Shown piece by piece: positions 2,585-12,831 of a DNA stretch of 12,831 nucleotides (position 1 is its first letter; each line of letters begins with the position of its first letter). The DNA comes from Clostridia bacterium (GTDB lineage Bacteria > Bacillota > Clostridia > Christensenellales > CAG-314), in NCBI GenBank assembly GCA_017452035.1, contig JAFTNE010000087.1, positions 1 through 12,831 on the forward strand. The letters run 5' to 3'. The position numbers and the translations under genes were made by a program. Under the pieces are notes generated by a model, which was not told the origin of the DNA, made no database searches, and worked only from the letters and a program-made list of their open reading frames with translations.

Positions 2585-2845
2585 ATGCCCATGATATCTG
2601 GTACTCATCATTGTTCGAAGTGTGGTTTTGAAATGTTTTGGGAATACCATCTTCCCGAACTGCGCCAAAATTGTACAGCATATACATTTACTAATGGCAG
2701 TCATCGAGTAACATTACTAAATAGTTTTAAAGATAGGCAATTACAATTTCGAATTGAGTGCACTAATTGCGACCATGCTGATTTTTTCAACTACGATAAC
2801 GGCAATTTTTACAATAAACAGAAATCGCATCGAAAACATTTTTAG
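2585..2845 (+). CDS. Small zinc-ribbon-like protein
   Basis: An 86-residue protein, second in the unit behind the XRE regulator, with AAGGTGAT about 6 bases before the ATG. It has two CxxC knuckles, CSKC (residues 10-13) and CTNC (around 59-62), about 50 residues apart, which suggests one zinc site and a small zinc-ribbon fold. There is no signal peptide or membrane segment, and the last residues are basic (KQKSHRKHF). A second in-frame ATG two codons downstream is an alternative start. The 3' end overlaps the minus-strand ORF 2787-3020 by 59 bases; transcription would continue to the terminator at 3041-3070. I do not recognise the family; a role in nucleic-acid or protein binding is only suggested by the zinc knuckles. 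Confidence 0.65.
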   Translation: MPMISGTHHCSKCGFEMFWEYHLPELRQNCTAYTFTNGSHRVTLLNSFKDRQLQFRIECTNCDHADFFNYDNGNFYNKQKSHRKHF

Positions 2846-3020
2846 TTAATGTTTTCAGTTCATTTTTGGTAATTCCTTCAATATCAATTTCCTCTCTTAA
2901 ACCACTTCTTTTGCAAAGATATCTTAATGTTTTGTCATTAGGATGCAATTCGTCAACCCCATACTCACTATTAAATAAAAATTCTTTTTGACATTCCAAA
3001 AGTCTAATTGCTCTGTTCAT
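2787..3020 (-). CDS. Small hypothetical protein, convergent with the zinc-ribbon gene
   Basis: A 77-residue minus-strand ORF whose ATG at 3020-3018 has a good ribosome-binding site on that strand (AAAGGTGGTGAAATAATG); an upstream ATG pair 11 codons earlier is less well supported. The protein is charged and appears largely helical (MNRAIRLLECQKEFL, GITKNELKTLTKNVF), with a Cys-x2-Cys near the end (YCKNCRYRS). No family is recognised. It overlaps the plus-strand gene by 59 bases tail to tail, and the terminator of that gene lies beyond its start, so plus-strand transcripts would be antisense to it along its whole length. I see no strong minus-strand promoter ahead of it, so it may be poorly expressed. 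Confidence 0.5.
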   Translation of the reverse strand: MNRAIRLLECQKEFLFNSEYGVDELHPNDKTLRYLCKRSGLREEIDIEGITKNELKTLTKNVFDAISVYCKNCRYRS

Positions 3021-3040
3021 TATTTCACCACCTTTCTTAA

Positions 3041-3070
3041 AGACACTCATCATGAATGTCTCTTTTTTTT
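3041..3070 (+). terminator. Rho-independent terminator of the regulator operon
   Basis: A hairpin with arms AGACACTCA (3041-3049) and TGAATGTCT (3053-3061), nine positions with one C-A mismatch and a tight loop, followed after one C by eight T (3063-3070) on the plus strand. It suits the end of the XRE and zinc-ribbon transcript. Confidence 0.7.
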
Positions 3071-3089
3071 ACTCTTTTTGTAGAAACTA

Positions 3090-3118
3090 TTGCAAATTTT
3101 CTGATAATGTGCTAAAAT
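3090..3118 (+). promoter_or_regulatory. Promoter of the structured leader and lipoprotein gene
   Basis: TTGCAA (3090-3095), 17-base spacer, TAAAAT (3113-3118) with an extended -10 (TGC directly before it). Predicted transcription start is about 3125, which is exactly where the first arm of the long hairpin begins. Confidence 0.75.
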
Positions 3119-3230
3119 ACGCTCGTCACACAAGTTAATAATATCCATTTTGGGAAAACTATACTTTGGTAAAAAGTTGTTTTCTCTTTTTGCTTATGCC
3201 CAAAATGGAGTAAAGCTTGTGTGACAACAA

Positions 3231-3261
3231 TAGGAGAAACACTTTTTCAGTGTGTCTCTTA
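3231..3261 (+). promoter_or_regulatory. Predicted antiterminator hairpin
   Basis: Bases 3231-3243 can pair with 3249-3261: ACACT/AGTGT, one A-G mismatch, then AGAG/CTCT, a G-U and two A-U pairs, around a five-base loop (TTTTC). This uses the whole left arm of the terminator at 3249-3273, so the two structures exclude each other. Confidence 0.55.
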
Positions 3262-3278
3262 TTGGGGCACACTTTTTT
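3249..3278 (+). terminator. Terminator upstream of the lipoprotein gene
   Basis: Stem AGTGTGTCTC (3249-3258) with GGGGCACACT (3264-3273): ten pairs including two G-U, loop TTATT, then six T (3273-3278). It lies between the promoter at 3090 and the gene at 3300, so it must be read through for expression from that promoter. Confidence 0.8.
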
Positions 3279-3299
3279 ATTTTACGGAGGTAAGCACAC

Positions 3300-4319
3300 A
3301 TGAAAAACACACAAAAGTTAACCCTTTTACTTATCCTTGCATTGCTAATTATAATAAGTGTTTTCACTTTTTCGGCTTGTGATGAACCTTCTAAAGCTTG
3401 TCAGCATCAATGGATTGAAGCGAATTGCCTTTACCCAAAAACTTGCCGAATTTGTTATCAAACCGAAGGAAGTGCTCTTGGGCATAACTTTTATAATGCC
3501 ACTTGTACTGAACCGAAAACTTGTACAAGCTGCAATCTAAAAGAAGGTGCTGCTCTCGGTCATTCCTATACATCCGTTGTACAAGCACCAACATGTACAA
3601 AACAAGGTTATACAACTCATACATGTTCTGCATGTGGTGACACAAAAGTAGACACATATGTAGAATCAAATGGTCACACAGTGGTGATTGACAATGCTGT
3701 ATCCGCAACTTGCACAAGGGCGGGTCTTACAGAAGGTAAACACTGTTCAATATGCAACGTAGTACTTGTTAAACAAGGACGGGTTGATGCTCTTGGACAC
3801 GATTATGTACAAGGTGAATGTACAATTTGTGGCGATGATGACCCTAATTATACCAATCCATACGATGCTCTTGCCCAATATGTCTTGGATAATGGCACCT
3901 ATAATGGGGAAGGGTGGTACTTTATTGAATACGATATTCTGGATGATGGTAATGAATATCAATTTTGCATTTTTACAGATGACATCGCAACTTCACTTTC
4001 ATTTGTAATGTATTCTTATGTAGCAGATAGTGATAGTTATGTAGAAATATATTTAAACAAAGATACAGATATACAAGATGTGTACATTTGGAACGAAAGT
4101 TCTGGACATACCACAAATGCTTACGGTTCTATTTACGAAAATACATTTGGTTACTCAAATTACATATACGACTATGAGTACTATGGGGATTATTCTTCTT
4201 TGTCTAGTAAATTTAAAGAAGTCTTTCAATCACAAGTAGATTTATTGTTAACAGGTGTTAGTACATTCTTATTGCCTGACCATATCACCATGGAAATGCT
4301 TGGATTTGTTAATTATTAA
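3300..4319 (+). CDS. Predicted lipoprotein with Cys/His-rich repeats
   Basis: A 339-residue protein. The start at 3300 has GGAGG at 3286-3290. A lipoprotein signal peptide covers residues 1-26 and ends in the lipobox FSAC, so Cys27 would be lipidated and the protein anchored on the outer face of the membrane. Residues 34-178 hold four and a half repeats built on the pattern A-x-C-x-x-P-K-T-C-x-x-C-x-x-x-E-G-x-A-L-G-H (clear at 41-62 and 67-88, looser at 89-126 and 127-167, short at 168-178). This repeat type is familiar from surface proteins of gut Clostridia; metal or thiol chemistry is possible but unproven. Residues 186-339 form an acidic, Tyr/Asp-rich globular region that I do not recognise. 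Expression probably depends on the leader and terminator at 3125-3278. No terminator is evident after the stop. Confidence 0.75.
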   Translation: MKNTQKLTLLLILALLIIISVFTFSACDEPSKACQHQWIEANCLYPKTCRICYQTEGSALGHNFYNATCTEPKTCTSCNLKEGAALGHSYTSVVQAPTCTKQGYTTHTCSACGDTKVDTYVESNGHTVVIDNAVSATCTRAGLTEGKHCSICNVVLVKQGRVDALGHDYVQGECTICGDDDPNYTNPYDALAQYVLDNGTYNGEGWYFIEYDILDDGNEYQFCIFTDDIATSLSFVMYSYVADSDSYVEIYLNKDTDIQDVYIWNESSGHTTNAYGSIYENTFGYSNYIYDYEYYGDYSSLSSKFKEVFQSQVDLLLTGVSTFLLPDHITMEMLGFVNY

Positions 4320-4338
4320 TTCATGCGTTTTATCCTAA

Positions 4339-4367
4339 TTGACAGAAAATTCAAAATATAGTACAAT
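4339..4367 (+). promoter_or_regulatory. Promoter of the cationic micro-ORF
   Basis: TTGACA (4339-4344), 17-base spacer, TACAAT (4362-4367): a near-consensus sigma-A promoter starting 20 bases after the lipoprotein stop codon. The leader from about 4374 to 4440 is roughly 67 bases. Confidence 0.85.
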
Positions 4368-4389
4368 TTCGCTTGCCATAATATTATTT

Positions 4390-4431
4390 CTCCTTTTATG
4401 TTAATTGCTTGAAAGTATTACACATAAGGAG
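4390..4431 (+). promoter_or_regulatory. Possible hairpin hiding the micro-ORF ribosome-binding site
   Basis: CTCCTT (4390-4395) is complementary to AAGGAG (4426-4431), the core of the Shine-Dalgarno sequence, and the stem continues with ATGT (4398-4401) against ACAT (4422-4425) after a two-base bulge. The ten pairs enclose a 20-base loop and would block translation of the ORF at 4441 until opened. Confidence 0.4.
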
Positions 4432-4440
4432 GTGAGCCGA

Positions 4441-4506
4441 ATGGCTAAGAGAAAAATTAAAATCGAAGTCAAGGTTACGGCTAAAGTCCGTATCCGTCGC
4501 CGCTAA
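4441..4506 (+). CDS. 21-residue strongly cationic micro-protein
   Basis: ATG at 4441 lies 6 bases after the extended Shine-Dalgarno AAGGAGGTGA (4426-4435), one of the strongest in the window, and the ORF ends at TAA 4504-4506. The peptide begins MAKRK, has an alternating charged/hydrophobic core (KIKIEVKVTAKVRI) and ends RRR: ten basic residues, one acidic, no aromatic residue and no cysteine. The alternation suits an amphipathic beta-strand or nucleic-acid binding tail. It has its own promoter (4339-4367) and terminator (4521-4553), so it is a complete one-gene transcription unit. It is far below usual gene-calling limits. I recognise no family; an RNA/DNA-binding, ribosome-associated or membrane-active peptide are all possible. 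Confidence 0.65.
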   Translation: MAKRKIKIEVKVTAKVRIRRR

Positions 4507-4520
4507 TATTATGCGACCTT

Positions 4521-4553
4521 AAGAGAGTGACCCAAGCACTCTCTTTTGTTTTG
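4521..4553 (+). terminator. Rho-independent terminator of the micro-ORF
   Basis: A perfect 9-bp stem, AAGAGAGTG (4521-4529) with CACTCTCTT (4537-4545), a seven-base loop, then TTTTGTTTTG. It sits 14 bases after the micro-ORF stop and separates it from walJ. Bases 4554-4649 between here and the next promoter show nothing I can assign. Confidence 0.85.
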
Positions 4554-4649
4554 TAATAGAGTGTTTGTATTTTGAATTATTCTGTCAATGGGTGGGCAAT
4601 AACTACTTGATGAACTACTTTACGAATTGAAGTGTTACATCGCCAAAAC

Positions 4650-4679
4650 TTTACAAAATATTGCAATGTGTGGTATAAT
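4650..4679 (+). promoter_or_regulatory. Promoter of walJ, with start site next to the ATG
   Basis: TTTACA (4650-4655), 18-base spacer, perfect TATAAT (4674-4679) with an extended -10 (TGG directly before it). The predicted start site is about 4686, only a few bases before the walJ ATG at 4689, so the message would be leaderless or nearly so. Confidence 0.7.
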
Positions 4680-4688
4680 ACTTATGTT

Positions 4689-5465
4689 ATGCTAAAACTT
4701 ACACCATTGTTTTCGGGCAGTAGGGGCAACTGTACCCTAATCCAGACAAATAACACCAATATTTTGTTAGACGTGGGCTACTCGTACAAAAAACTTTTGG
4801 TAGCTTTGGAGGGCAAAAACCTTACCCCCAAAGATATTTCTGCCATTGTCATCACACACGAGCACGACGACCATATTTGCGCGTTGCCAATGTGGACAAA
4901 GTTCGTGCCCAACACAAAAATTTACGTACCACAACCTATTGTTAACTGCATTGCAAATCGCAGTTACTCACCTTATGTAGAGGGTATTGGTGGTAGTTTT
5001 GTCGTTGGTGACGTTACAGTGGACGTGTATCAATGCTCACACGACAGTCAAGCTTGTTGTGGCTATCGGTTTAGTAATGAAGGTCAAAGCATTGCCAGTA
5101 TCACCGATACGGGGTGTTTTGATGAGCAAACGGTACAATTTCTTGCGCCATGCAAGGTTGTGCAATTAGAGTGCAACCATGACGTTACTATGTTGCAAAG
5201 TGGAAGGTATCCTTACCTTTTGAAACGCCGTATTGCATCCCCTTTTGGACACCTTTCCAATGACCAATGCGCCAGCATTTTGCAACAACTCATTGGTACC
5301 AACGTCAAAAAAGTGGTGCTTGCACACCTTTCTGAAAACAACAACACAGCAGAACTTGCCTTTGATACAGTAAACAAAATGTATCAAAAGAATAATATTG
5401 TGGAGGGACGCGATATTCAAATTTACGTTGCATCCCAACACACAGTAGGAGAAACAATTGACTAA
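4689..5465 (+). CDS. walJ: MBL-fold metallo-hydrolase, WalJ/YycJ family
   Basis: A 258-residue metallo-beta-lactamase-fold protein, probably a cytoplasmic 5'-3' exonuclease-like enzyme binding two metal ions; WalJ has been linked to cell-wall and DNA-replication control in Firmicutes. The N-terminus MLKLTPLFSGSRGNC matches the family start (FSSGSSGNC). The metal motif HxHxDH is present as THEHDDH (His57, His59, Asp61, His62), followed by CSHDS, the Asp of ITDTGCF, ECNHD, and AHLSENNN near the C-terminus, all as expected for this subfamily. The start at 4689 is set by the family alignment; the frame extends upstream to a GTG at 4632 but that lies ahead of the predicted promoter. There is no Shine-Dalgarno before the ATG. 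It heads a unit with the CPBP protease (8-base overlap) and rlmH, the conserved partner. Confidence 0.9.
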   Translation: MLKLTPLFSGSRGNCTLIQTNNTNILLDVGYSYKKLLVALEGKNLTPKDISAIVITHEHDDHICALPMWTKFVPNTKIYVPQPIVNCIANRSYSPYVEGIGGSFVVGDVTVDVYQCSHDSQACCGYRFSNEGQSIASITDTGCFDEQTVQFLAPCKVVQLECNHDVTMLQSGRYPYLLKRRIASPFGHLSNDQCASILQQLIGTNVKKVVLAHLSENNNTAELAFDTVNKMYQKNNIVEGRDIQIYVASQHTVGETID

Positions 5466-6908: not shown

Positions 6909-8537
6909 ATGGAACTACTAACAAACAAAACATTGTGGGAAGGCTTTGATGCAACTGCCGAGCAACTGGACGTTACCGTTGCTAAAACAGTAGCGCAAGA
7001 CAAATATACCTTTACAAAGGTCTACTTTACTGGCAGAACCTTTGCAAGTGGTCGCAAAACTCGTGTTTGCGCCAACATTTGCCAACCCAACAAAAAAAGT
7101 GGCAGAGCAGTACTACTAATTACCAGTAGCCATCGCTCTTTTAACCAAAAAGAGTTGTTGGATATTGCTCAAAATGGCTTTATTGCCATGTCCATTGACG
7201 TAGACGGTCGTACAGAAAGTGGCTGTGGTACTATGTACCCCGAGGAAGTATCTTATTGCAACGCTGTGGAAAACAAAGATATCTACTTTTTTGATGGCAC
7301 AGTGCGCAACAGCAAGTTGTACGAACAAGCTCTTTGCGCTATGCGCGCCATTACCTATTTGGTAGATGTGGAAGGCGCAAGCAGTGTTTCCGTTGTAACA
7401 ATTGGCGAGTGCAGTAGCATTGGCGCTATTGTTTGCGCACAAGACAAACGCATTACTAACGGTATGCTTTTGTTTGGTAACCTCAACATTGATTACCCCG
7501 AGGCAGACTTTGTTGTAGATGGCAAAGCATCCTTGCAGGATCAATTTGCTCACGACGACAAAAGTCAAGCGTGGACAATGGGCCTTGCTCCACAAAGCTA
7601 TCTTATGAATATCACCGTGCCTATGTACGTAGTAAACTCTGCAAACAGTCACAGGGTGGATGTCGTTGAGGTTAGTAAATCTTTTAACAGACTTAACAAT
7701 CAAAGTAGATTGCTTATTGTGCCAGATATGTTCGACTGGTTGGATGCGCGATACACAAAAAGCGTGATTGCTTGGTGCAAAGGCGCAACCACCGAGGAGG
7801 AAAATGAAATTGGCTACTTTGTGGAAAACGGCGAATACTTTGTAAAACTGAAAACATCAGCGAAAATTGAAGACAGCGCCATTTGGTACTGTACAAATGC
7901 AAATTCTCGCGCAAAGCACTGGTCAAAAGCTCAACTTGTTGAGCGTGACGACGGCTACGTTGCCAAGTTAGATTTGTACCAACAAAACTGTAACGTGGTG
8001 GCATTTTCTCAAATTACAGGCAAAATTACAACCTCCTCCACTCTGTTGGAAATCCAAGTCAAAAACGCACAAAACGTCAAAATTCCCAATAGCATTTTGT
8101 TCACTGGCGAAGGTCAAAATCAGCTTTTTTCCATTGGTTCATCAAAGTACAGTTTATTTACCACGTCCGAGTTTAAACGCAAAAAGGGCTACCTTGGCAT
8201 TGTTGGCGCGCAGGGCAATGGTCTTGCAACATTTGCATTGACCGACCCAAGTGTCAAAACAAGGTCGCATTTTGCCGTTACATTTGATATTTGCGCAACG
8301 GAGCAAACACCCCTTACCATCGCTGTGGTATGTAACTATGGTCAAACAAACGACATCTACATTGCCACAAAAGCTCTTATTGGTGATGGCAAGTGGCAAC
8401 GAGTAACGGTGGATGCCAACGATTTTTATAGTAATAGCACCGAGCGTAGCAAACAAATGCCAGCAGAACAAATCCCTCAACTGTTGGTTTTGAAAAGTCA
8501 ACAAACCTTTTTGGTTAACAACATAATTTTGGTATGA
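6909..8537 (+). CDS. Divergent alpha/beta-hydrolase-like protein with C-terminal beta-rich region
   Basis: A 542-residue protein; the ATG at 6909 has AAAGGA five bases upstream, whereas the in-frame ATG at 6879 would put the 16-bp palindrome inside the gene. Residues about 30-295 follow the layout of acetyl-xylan-esterase-like hydrolases: a VYFTGRTFASGRKTRVCANI strand pair, a VLLITSSHRS oxyanion-loop region, a RAITYLVDVEGASSVSVV helix-strand, the elbow TIGECSSIGA (164-173), CAQDKRI and VPMYVV. The usual G-x-S-x-G nucleophile is replaced by G-E-C-S-S, with Cys168 at the nucleophile position, and the catalytic His region is not recognisable (VPDMFDWLDARY). Residues about 300-542 look like beta-sandwich material. 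There is no signal peptide. It may be a pseudoenzyme or use Cys, as dienelactone hydrolases do. Its stop overlaps the next ATG (ATGA at 8534-8537). Confidence 0.6.
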   Translation: MELLTNKTLWEGFDATAEQLDVTVAKTVAQDKYTFTKVYFTGRTFASGRKTRVCANICQPNKKSGRAVLLITSSHRSFNQKELLDIAQNGFIAMSIDVDGRTESGCGTMYPEEVSYCNAVENKDIYFFDGTVRNSKLYEQALCAMRAITYLVDVEGASSVSVVTIGECSSIGAIVCAQDKRITNGMLLFGNLNIDYPEADFVVDGKASLQDQFAHDDKSQAWTMGLAPQSYLMNITVPMYVVNSANSHRVDVVEVSKSFNRLNNQSRLLIVPDMFDWLDARYTKSVIAWCKGATTEEENEIGYFVENGEYFVKLKTSAKIEDSAIWYCTNANSRAKHWSKAQLVERDDGYVAKLDLYQQNCNVVAFSQITGKITTSSTLLEIQVKNAQNVKIPNSILFTGEGQNQLFSIGSSKYSLFTTSEFKRKKGYLGIVGAQGNGLATFALTDPSVKTRSHFAVTFDICATEQTPLTIAVVCNYGQTNDIYIATKALIGDGKWQRVTVDANDFYSNSTERSKQMPAEQIPQLLVLKSQQTFLVNNIILV

Positions 8538-12186: not shown

Positions 12187-12831
12187 TTTGAAACGTATAG
12201 GCATTGTGCTGGTTGTGGCAACACTTTTGTTGGTGACGTCTGCAAGTTTTATGTCCAATGACATTTTGAACAGGGCAATTATCATTGGCCTTGGGTTAGA
12301 TTTGGCAGAGGACAACCAACTTGTTGTCACTGCAGAGGTTATTAGCCCCGGAAACGGCAGTGAGCAAGTGGGCACGTTTAGTAAAACAATTACAGTGACG
12401 GGGCAAACGGTGGCGCACGCCATTGGGCTAATAACACAAAAAATGGGCAAAGAGGCGTCACTTGGGCAGTGCGCATTGCTTATGCTTGGACAAAGTTTGT
12501 ACACCAAGGTAGATTTTTCGCAAATTGTCGATTTTTTTATCCACTCCTATAACTTTAAGGAGTCGTCAGTAATTTGCTGTACCAAAGGAGAGGCAAAGGA
12601 TTTGCTAAATCAAGGCGAGGCTATGTCGCAAAGCGTATCGTTAGCCATCATTTCCACATTGCAACAGCAGGCAAAAAGTATCGCTTTGCCAACCAATTCT
12701 CTTTTGCAGTACACTCGCAGTCAAAAAGAACTTCTTGGCACTGGCTTTGCCAACTACGTTCAGTTTGTGCCTTCCAACAATGCCGACCCACAAAACCCTA
12801 ACAAAACACAGGGCTACTTTGCCTATAATGG
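12179..12831 (+). CDS. gerAC: Spore germination protein, GerA family C subunit (3' end outside window)
   Basis: The first 217 codons of a GerAC-type protein, open to the window edge. The ATG at 12179-12181 has TGGAGG ending six bases upstream and overlaps the B-subunit stop. After a hydrophobic N-terminus (residues 5-22) comes NDILNRAIIIGLGLDLAED, the counterpart of the family's conserved opening (xxINDLAIVxGIGID), then VTAEVISPG and a GKEASLGQCALLMLG stretch typical of domain 1. The C subunit is normally a lipoprotein on the outer side of the spore inner membrane. Here the lipobox Cys-Trp-Asp is absent: the aligned stretch reads SASFMS, with Ser at the Cys position, so it would be anchored by an uncleaved helix or secreted. 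Confidence 0.88.
   Translation, partial: MNSLKRIGIVLVVATLLLVTSASFMSNDILNRAIIIGLGLDLAEDNQLVVTAEVISPGNGSEQVGTFSKTITVTGQTVAHAIGLITQKMGKEASLGQCALLMLGQSLYTKVDFSQIVDFFIHSYNFKESSVICCTKGEAKDLLNQGEAMSQSVSLAIISTLQQQAKSIALPTNSLLQYTRSQKELLGTGFANYVQFVPSNNADPQNPNKTQGYFAYN

Follow-up and report, generated by a model that had tools for sequence, protein, structure and literature searches.

In preQ1-I, ZTP and fluoride riboswitches, the strand just 3′ of the sensing domain is either held by that domain or used by the antiterminator or terminator, while T-box leaders and ANTAR/BglG-type antiterminators use an antiterminator and a terminator that exclude each other within a 5′ leader. In clostridia, c-di-GMP riboswitches occur in many copies per genome before surface genes, and copies are also present in phages. 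The RNA element described here, from a 12,831-nucleotide stretch of a Clostridia bacterium contig (the window), resembles each of these systems. Its predicted layout has both the contested 3′ strand and the mutually exclusive hairpins, and, as with c-di-GMP-I and -II riboswitches, a genome can carry the element many times, sometimes in tandem, ahead of genes for secreted and surface proteins, and phages have copies too. Compared through Rfam with preQ1-I, ZTP and fluoride riboswitches, it differs in having no Rfam match at cut-off, in the length of the duplex predicted between its tip strand S and the strand X that follows its outer helix P1 (median 15 bp), and in that transcription should begin precisely with P1. 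No Rfam match places it with c-di-GMP-I or -II riboswitches either, and 39 of the 53 carrier genomes show no GGDEF gene at E ≤ 1e-10; from T-box leaders it is separated by the absence of a T-box covariance model match at the element in the loci scanned. We read positions 3125-3278 as a transcription attenuator that acts in cis, belongs to a new family, is locked to its promoter and has a terminator and antiterminator contested through X, and assign this reading a probability of about 80%. Judged from sequence, the attenuator is probably a riboswitch.

The initial annotation had described two perfect 10-bp stems nested in one another, 3125-3134/3216-3225 and 3145-3154/3199-3208, and had judged a chance origin unlikely. 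Both stems are found at these positions, and a perfect nested pair of 10-mers within 110 nt occurred in none of 300 length-matched Markov-1 random sequences. The computed fold extends the stems to 12 bp (3125-3136/3214-3225) and 11 bp (3144-3154/3199-3209), and the minimum free energy of 3115-3240, -39.5 kcal/mol, was equalled by 0 of 200 dinucleotide shuffles (z -5.9). The annotated range of 3125 to 3225 contained the stems but ended too early, as the conserved element runs through the terminator to 3278 (Table 1). At the tip, the computed fold pairs 3168-3176 with 3186-3194; homologues read by eye suggest an alternative pairing of 3154-3159 with 3179-3184. The antiterminator (3229-3263) excludes the intrinsic terminator (3249-3273), and the two hairpins are near equal in energy, as a switch needs, which we counted in favour of a switch. 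The lipoprotein encoded downstream has no Pfam match.

Table 1. Positions of the promoter, RNA element and downstream gene in the window
Feature	Positions	Strand	Basis
Promoter: TTGCAA 3090-3095, TG 3110-3111, TAAAAT 3113-3118; 17-base spacer; expected RNA start ~3125	3090..3118	+	Sequence; fixed distance in relatives
Whole element	3125-3278	+	P1, P2, tip hairpin, strand X, antiterminator, terminator; promoter before, lipoprotein gene after
P1, 5′ strand	3125..3136	+	Fold, random-window control; covariation in relatives
5′ side of P1/P2 internal loop, conserved AATA	3137..3143	+	AATA frequency in relatives
P2, 5′ strand	3144..3154	+	Fold; own-versus-swapped energies
Tip strand S (GGTAAAAAG...TCTC), complementary to X, also part of tip hairpin	3168..3189	+	S:X tests
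P2, 3′ strand	3199..3209	+	Fold
P1, 3′ strand	3214..3225	+	Fold; covariation
Strand X, after P1; putative partner of S or part of antiterminator	3231..3249	+	S:X and antiterminator tests
Antiterminator hairpin, -13.5 kcal/mol	3229..3263	+	Folding energy; pairs kept in relatives
Intrinsic terminator: stem 3249-3258/3264-3273, -14.2 kcal/mol; T run 3273-3278	3249..3278	+	Sequence, energy, covariation
Ribosome-binding site GGAGG	3286..3290	+	Sequence reading
Downstream gene: 339-aa lipoprotein, Cys-rich repeats	3300..4319	+	ORF; lipobox by pattern

Searching 151 genomes, among them that of the window, at the DNA level gave weak matches, around a few of which the layout was the same with the letters changed. 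A first model built from six seeds matched 57 of the 151 genomes at E ≤ 0.5, and a second, built from 72 copies, matched 53 of 151 at E ≤ 1e-4 (own genome counted); the latter matches include 23 of 24 other congeneric genomes. Across the class, the second model matched 96 of 391 genomes at E ≤ 0.001, again counting the window's own, in a search that scored only 8 candidates per genome and in which several genomes reached 8; stricter filters lose weak copies. The draw from the phylum, which doubles as a specificity control, gave a match in 1 of 249 genomes, namely the window's own. Carriers often hold several copies per genome, sometimes in tandem, and in the window's own genome (79% complete) no second DNA match of the window copy was found at E ≤ 0.001. 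Homologues of the lipoprotein were found at 19 loci, of which 13 were carried into the model search, and served mainly to name organisms. Among the 12 named genomes obtained in this way, 8 match the model at E ≤ 0.1 (titles Oscillospiraceae, Eubacterium, Ruminococcus and Clostridia bacterium) and 4 have no match at that threshold (Oscillospiraceae, Christensenella, Lachnospiraceae and Clostridia). From 79 matches, four in which the palindromic hairpin was hit on the reverse strand (L066, L068, L088, L072) and two L094 rows repeating L074 were removed to give the 73-copy set used below; merging it with 94 further copies and removing 3 repeats gave the set of 164.

The test on homologues that the initial annotation had proposed was whether the stems undergo compensatory change, and they do, with double-sided changes at 9 of 9 P1 pairs in each of two alignments (72 and 94 copies, sharing at least one copy, L089/L212). 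Taken together, the P1 and terminator pairs are formed in 99.1% and 99.8% of alignment cells, and 15 of 16 and 16 of 16 pairs, respectively, are changed on both sides, a level reached by 0 of 500 shuffles. Their covariation was 0.598 against 0.203 in shuffles for the 72 copies and 0.493 against 0.179 for the 94, with slid registers at or below 0.095. The alignments were fitted to the tested structure, which favours it; slid and shuffled controls were nevertheless far off. The arms of P1 and the terminator accept G-U pairs in both alignments. The sequence of P1 is conserved beyond pairing needs, for example with A-U at alignment column 5 in 61/72 and 89/94 copies, and AATA lies within 12 nt after P1 in 116/164 copies (0.08 expected by shuffling). 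P2 is variable in sequence, and its own strands pair at -20.0 versus -7.7 kcal/mol when swapped between copies (z -56, 164 copies). Similarly, the antiterminator strand fits its own terminator arm (-15.5 versus -9.65 kcal/mol swapped, z -25, 164 copies), although such own-versus-swapped tests on related copies overstate independence. An antiterminator with 6 or more pairs is present in 163/164 copies; the antiterminator segment equals or exceeds the terminator in stability in only 95/164, which we counted against the switch model. In compact copies trunk length varies little (median 23 bp, quartiles 21.75-24, n=32), which would be in keeping with a fold that is compact and bent. A check for upstream peptides gave a ribosome-site-like string with a start codon in 91/164 copies and was judged uninformative.

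Complementarity between S and X was evaluated in the 129 of 164 copies in which an anchor was found, the other 35 being left out. The own S:X duplex averaged -15.1 kcal/mol versus -9.6 for swapped strands (z -19.5) and was among the best 10% of swaps in 91/129 copies; measured against other copies of the same genome, own duplexes gave -16.3 (n=56) versus -12.6 (n=178). In an earlier test on 73 copies, the own partner was the best of all in only 10/73 and the mean lay beyond all 10,000 permutations. A pair table for 96 copies of one subtype shows all four Watson-Crick types at several S positions; the register there was chosen by complementarity and only cells paired by the duplex program were used, so mismatches cannot appear. 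Part of the complementarity would also be expected if S merely resembles the 5′ arm of the terminator. Under a plain length criterion, the linkers would be long enough to cross the P1-P2 trunk in only 73/162 copies, and in 89/162 they are too short unless the internal loop were to bend the trunk back. The S:X duplex may thus be incompatible with the trunk, or it may be a misreading. The correlation between trunk length and linker length is -0.27. The duplex may form beside the trunk, as a pseudoknot, or instead of part of it.

The promoter noticed at the outset, an extended -10 type that would start RNA at the first stem, has the expected parts, TTGCAA and TAAAAT with TG before the -10 hexamer (Table 1). 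As promoter-like sites number 9 in 2800-4700 with 8.1 expected by chance, the window promoter alone proves nothing; the proof is its fixed position in relatives. Exactly five bases separate the -10 hexamer from the first model position in 139/166 copies, and a hexamer at a distance of 5-7 is present in 89.8% of upstreams versus 16.5% of shuffled upstreams. The hexamer is TG-extended in 134 of the 166 copies and the -35 matches at least 4 of 6 bases in 132, both counted without a control. With this distance fixed, transcription should begin at the base of P1. To our knowledge a fixed promoter-to-helix distance is unusual for leader RNAs, and we call the promoter lock an odd trait of an otherwise known kind of device, a leader attenuator or riboswitch.

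Downstream genes are rich in lipoproteins and secreted proteins. For cargo of at least 80 aa, a hydrophobic N-terminus was found in 60/91 versus 47/237 other ORFs of the same loci and a lipobox in 28/91 versus 11/237, by simple rules and with other ORFs that may include false ones. Pfam was run on 68 cargo genes, after exclusion of genes whose start was distant or not credible, and on 63 of 65 selected in a second set. BspA-type LRR_5 repeats were matched in 12/68 and 4/63, and Listeria-Bacteroides repeats, zinc ribbons, SPFH, copper-amine-oxidase-N, CHAP, SLH and AMP-binding are among the top 25 families. Some cargo is small, cytosolic-looking or MazE/AbrB-like, indicating that the regulon is not purely surface. 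PHROGs matches on cargo fall mostly in families of unknown function, and defence genes showed no trend as cargo against the 25 best PADLOC families, one member each. The regulon names no pathway and therefore suggests no ligand.

Comparison of the copies establishes P1, P2, the antiterminator, the terminator, S:X complementarity, promoter locking and the downstream gene as features of the sequence. We infer that transcription actually starts and terminates at the predicted sites and that the signal acts in the OFF direction. RNA polymerase would start at the first base of P1, and the transcript would fold into a sensor domain of P1, P2 and the tip. On leaving P1, strand X would be contested by S and by the first half of the terminator. 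If free, X would pair with the terminator's first half, so that the antiterminator forms first and the lipoprotein gene is transcribed; were X held by S or otherwise unavailable, the terminator would form and transcription would stop. A signal bound by the sensor domain would most likely favour S:X and so turn the gene OFF. We also infer the aptamer-like character proposed for the RNA from the outset. That the signal is a small molecule is, as a last step taken by itself, an evenly balanced call.

The initial annotation also found no known riboswitch consensus at the element, and the Rfam 15 scan of the window and 26 other loci agrees. No family reached its gathering cut-off over an element (window at E ≤ 5; 12 loci at E ≤ 1; 15 loci, one of them the window's, at E ≤ 0.5), and a single match below cut-off overlaps one (L214 1539-1652, Phe_leader, 32.9 bits against a cut-off of 55, E 0.1). 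Its broader proposal of a cis-regulatory RNA or small RNA is supported by the compensatory changes together with the lack of an Rfam match. As in transcriptional riboswitches, a conserved folded domain with compensatory changes lies in the 5′ leader, and 3′ of it the antiterminator and terminator are, at sequence level only, mutually exclusive. A reverse transcriptase, as expected of a retron, is absent from the nine window proteins scanned and from the best 25 families of each cargo set. The matches listed from the open-licence literature held no description of this RNA, which is weak evidence.

Instead of sensing a signal itself, the leader could be bound by an antiterminator or terminator protein that reads the trunk or tip and the antiterminator hairpins. 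Such a protein would suit the conservation of P1 beyond pairing needs, for instance at the column 5 A-U, and the large, scattered gene set with copies in phage contigs; known protein-bound leaders in Rfam, however, gave no match in the loci scanned, and we consider this reading possible though doubtful. The arrangement of promoter, terminator and ribosome site favours cis-regulation over a free small RNA that has its own promoter and terminator and precedes genes by happenstance. Although the copies are complete promoter-to-terminator units, and tandem units occur with separate promoters where upstream sequence was inspected, a free RNA has no need of an antiterminator, which nearly all copies keep, and a ribosome site with an ORF starting within 65 nt downstream on the same strand follows 109/165 copies versus 80/664 random positions (56/165 have no clear gene start within 65 nt by the rule used). 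A free small RNA is therefore improbable.

More remote still is an element acting as DNA, for instance the relic of a small transposon, a site of recombination or a paired operator, whose arms form inverted repeats by chance. Inverted repeats, several copies per genome and copies in phage contigs would fit it, but changes in one arm are compensated in the other, G-U pairs are tolerated, the orientation relative to promoter and gene is the same in most copies, and the window copy has no second DNA match at E ≤ 0.001 in its own genome, which is 79% complete. A divergent c-di-GMP riboswitch controlling a surface regulon would explain the many copies before surface genes, as known from clostridia, yet neither the c-di-GMP-I (RF01051) nor the class II consensus matched at the element in the loci scanned, and the only c-di-GMP-I match in the window lies at 7888-7967 with 19.5 bits against a cut-off of 35. 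GGDEF genes at E ≤ 1e-10 are present in 14/53 carriers versus 45/98 non-carriers, and the carriers without one include the window's genome; c-di-GMP was rejected as ligand on this count, some of the genomes being incomplete, and we regard the divergent riboswitch as very unlikely. Returning to the attenuator, we see an even chance that it represents a new class of riboswitch, found in roughly one in four of the species sampled in the taxonomic class (96/391) and in some phages, which responds to an intracellular signal, regulates many surface and secreted proteins and moves as a fixed promoter-plus-switch cassette before unrelated genes. If so, a control RNA widespread in apparent clostridia is missing from Rfam 15, one that would govern the surface proteins with which cells face host and neighbours, lipoproteins and BspA-type repeat proteins among them. 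It would provide surface control in genomes where c-di-GMP signalling often seems absent, and its ligand would point to an unrecognised signal.

An exact 15-base string was used to pick 73 stretches of viral contigs, and 21 of them contain a copy at E ≤ 2e-6; several of these have identical scores. A DNA search of phage records with the window element gave short pieces only (E 0.7), the viral copy at L145 found nothing in phage or plasmid records, and a second viral pattern gave no match. Neighbours of the L145 copy match phage exonuclease, HNH, virion structural and large-terminase families, which puts this copy in a phage context. In L145 3430-10878, the RNA copy and its cargo gene stand just before the exonuclease and a 908-aa protein of phrog_4291, a family annotated as RNA-dependent RNA polymerase; we presume that this protein may be a YonO-like phage RNA polymerase. 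A cargo family of ~345 aa recurs behind the phage-contig copies at L137, L159, L189 and L170, with ..KILEFLYGDKKAEL.. common to those whose sequence was read.

Two RNA copies lie within a few hundred bases of each other at L129, L230, L248, L251, L254, L272, L275, L277 and L286, and also at L074, L097, L114 and L120. Read by eye, each tandem unit has a separate promoter where upstream sequence was inspected. In L074 (1209-1645), the first tandem unit is followed by what seems, by eye, to be a decayed copy of the gene behind the second.

Elsewhere in the window, a short ORF at 62-463 carries a motif by which we take it to resemble a ClpP-type protease. A DDE_Tnp_1 transposase gene on the minus strand (769-2316) lies next to an HTH_3 regulator gene, for which the ORF runs from 2011 and the scan covered 2200-2562. 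Two more perfect inverted repeats of more than 10 bases are present at 12338-12435 and 2177-2213. A very basic 21-residue mini-ORF (MAKRKIKIEVKVTAKVRIRRR) lies at 4441-4506, with a near-consensus promoter at 4339-4367 and a terminator after it at 4521-4545.
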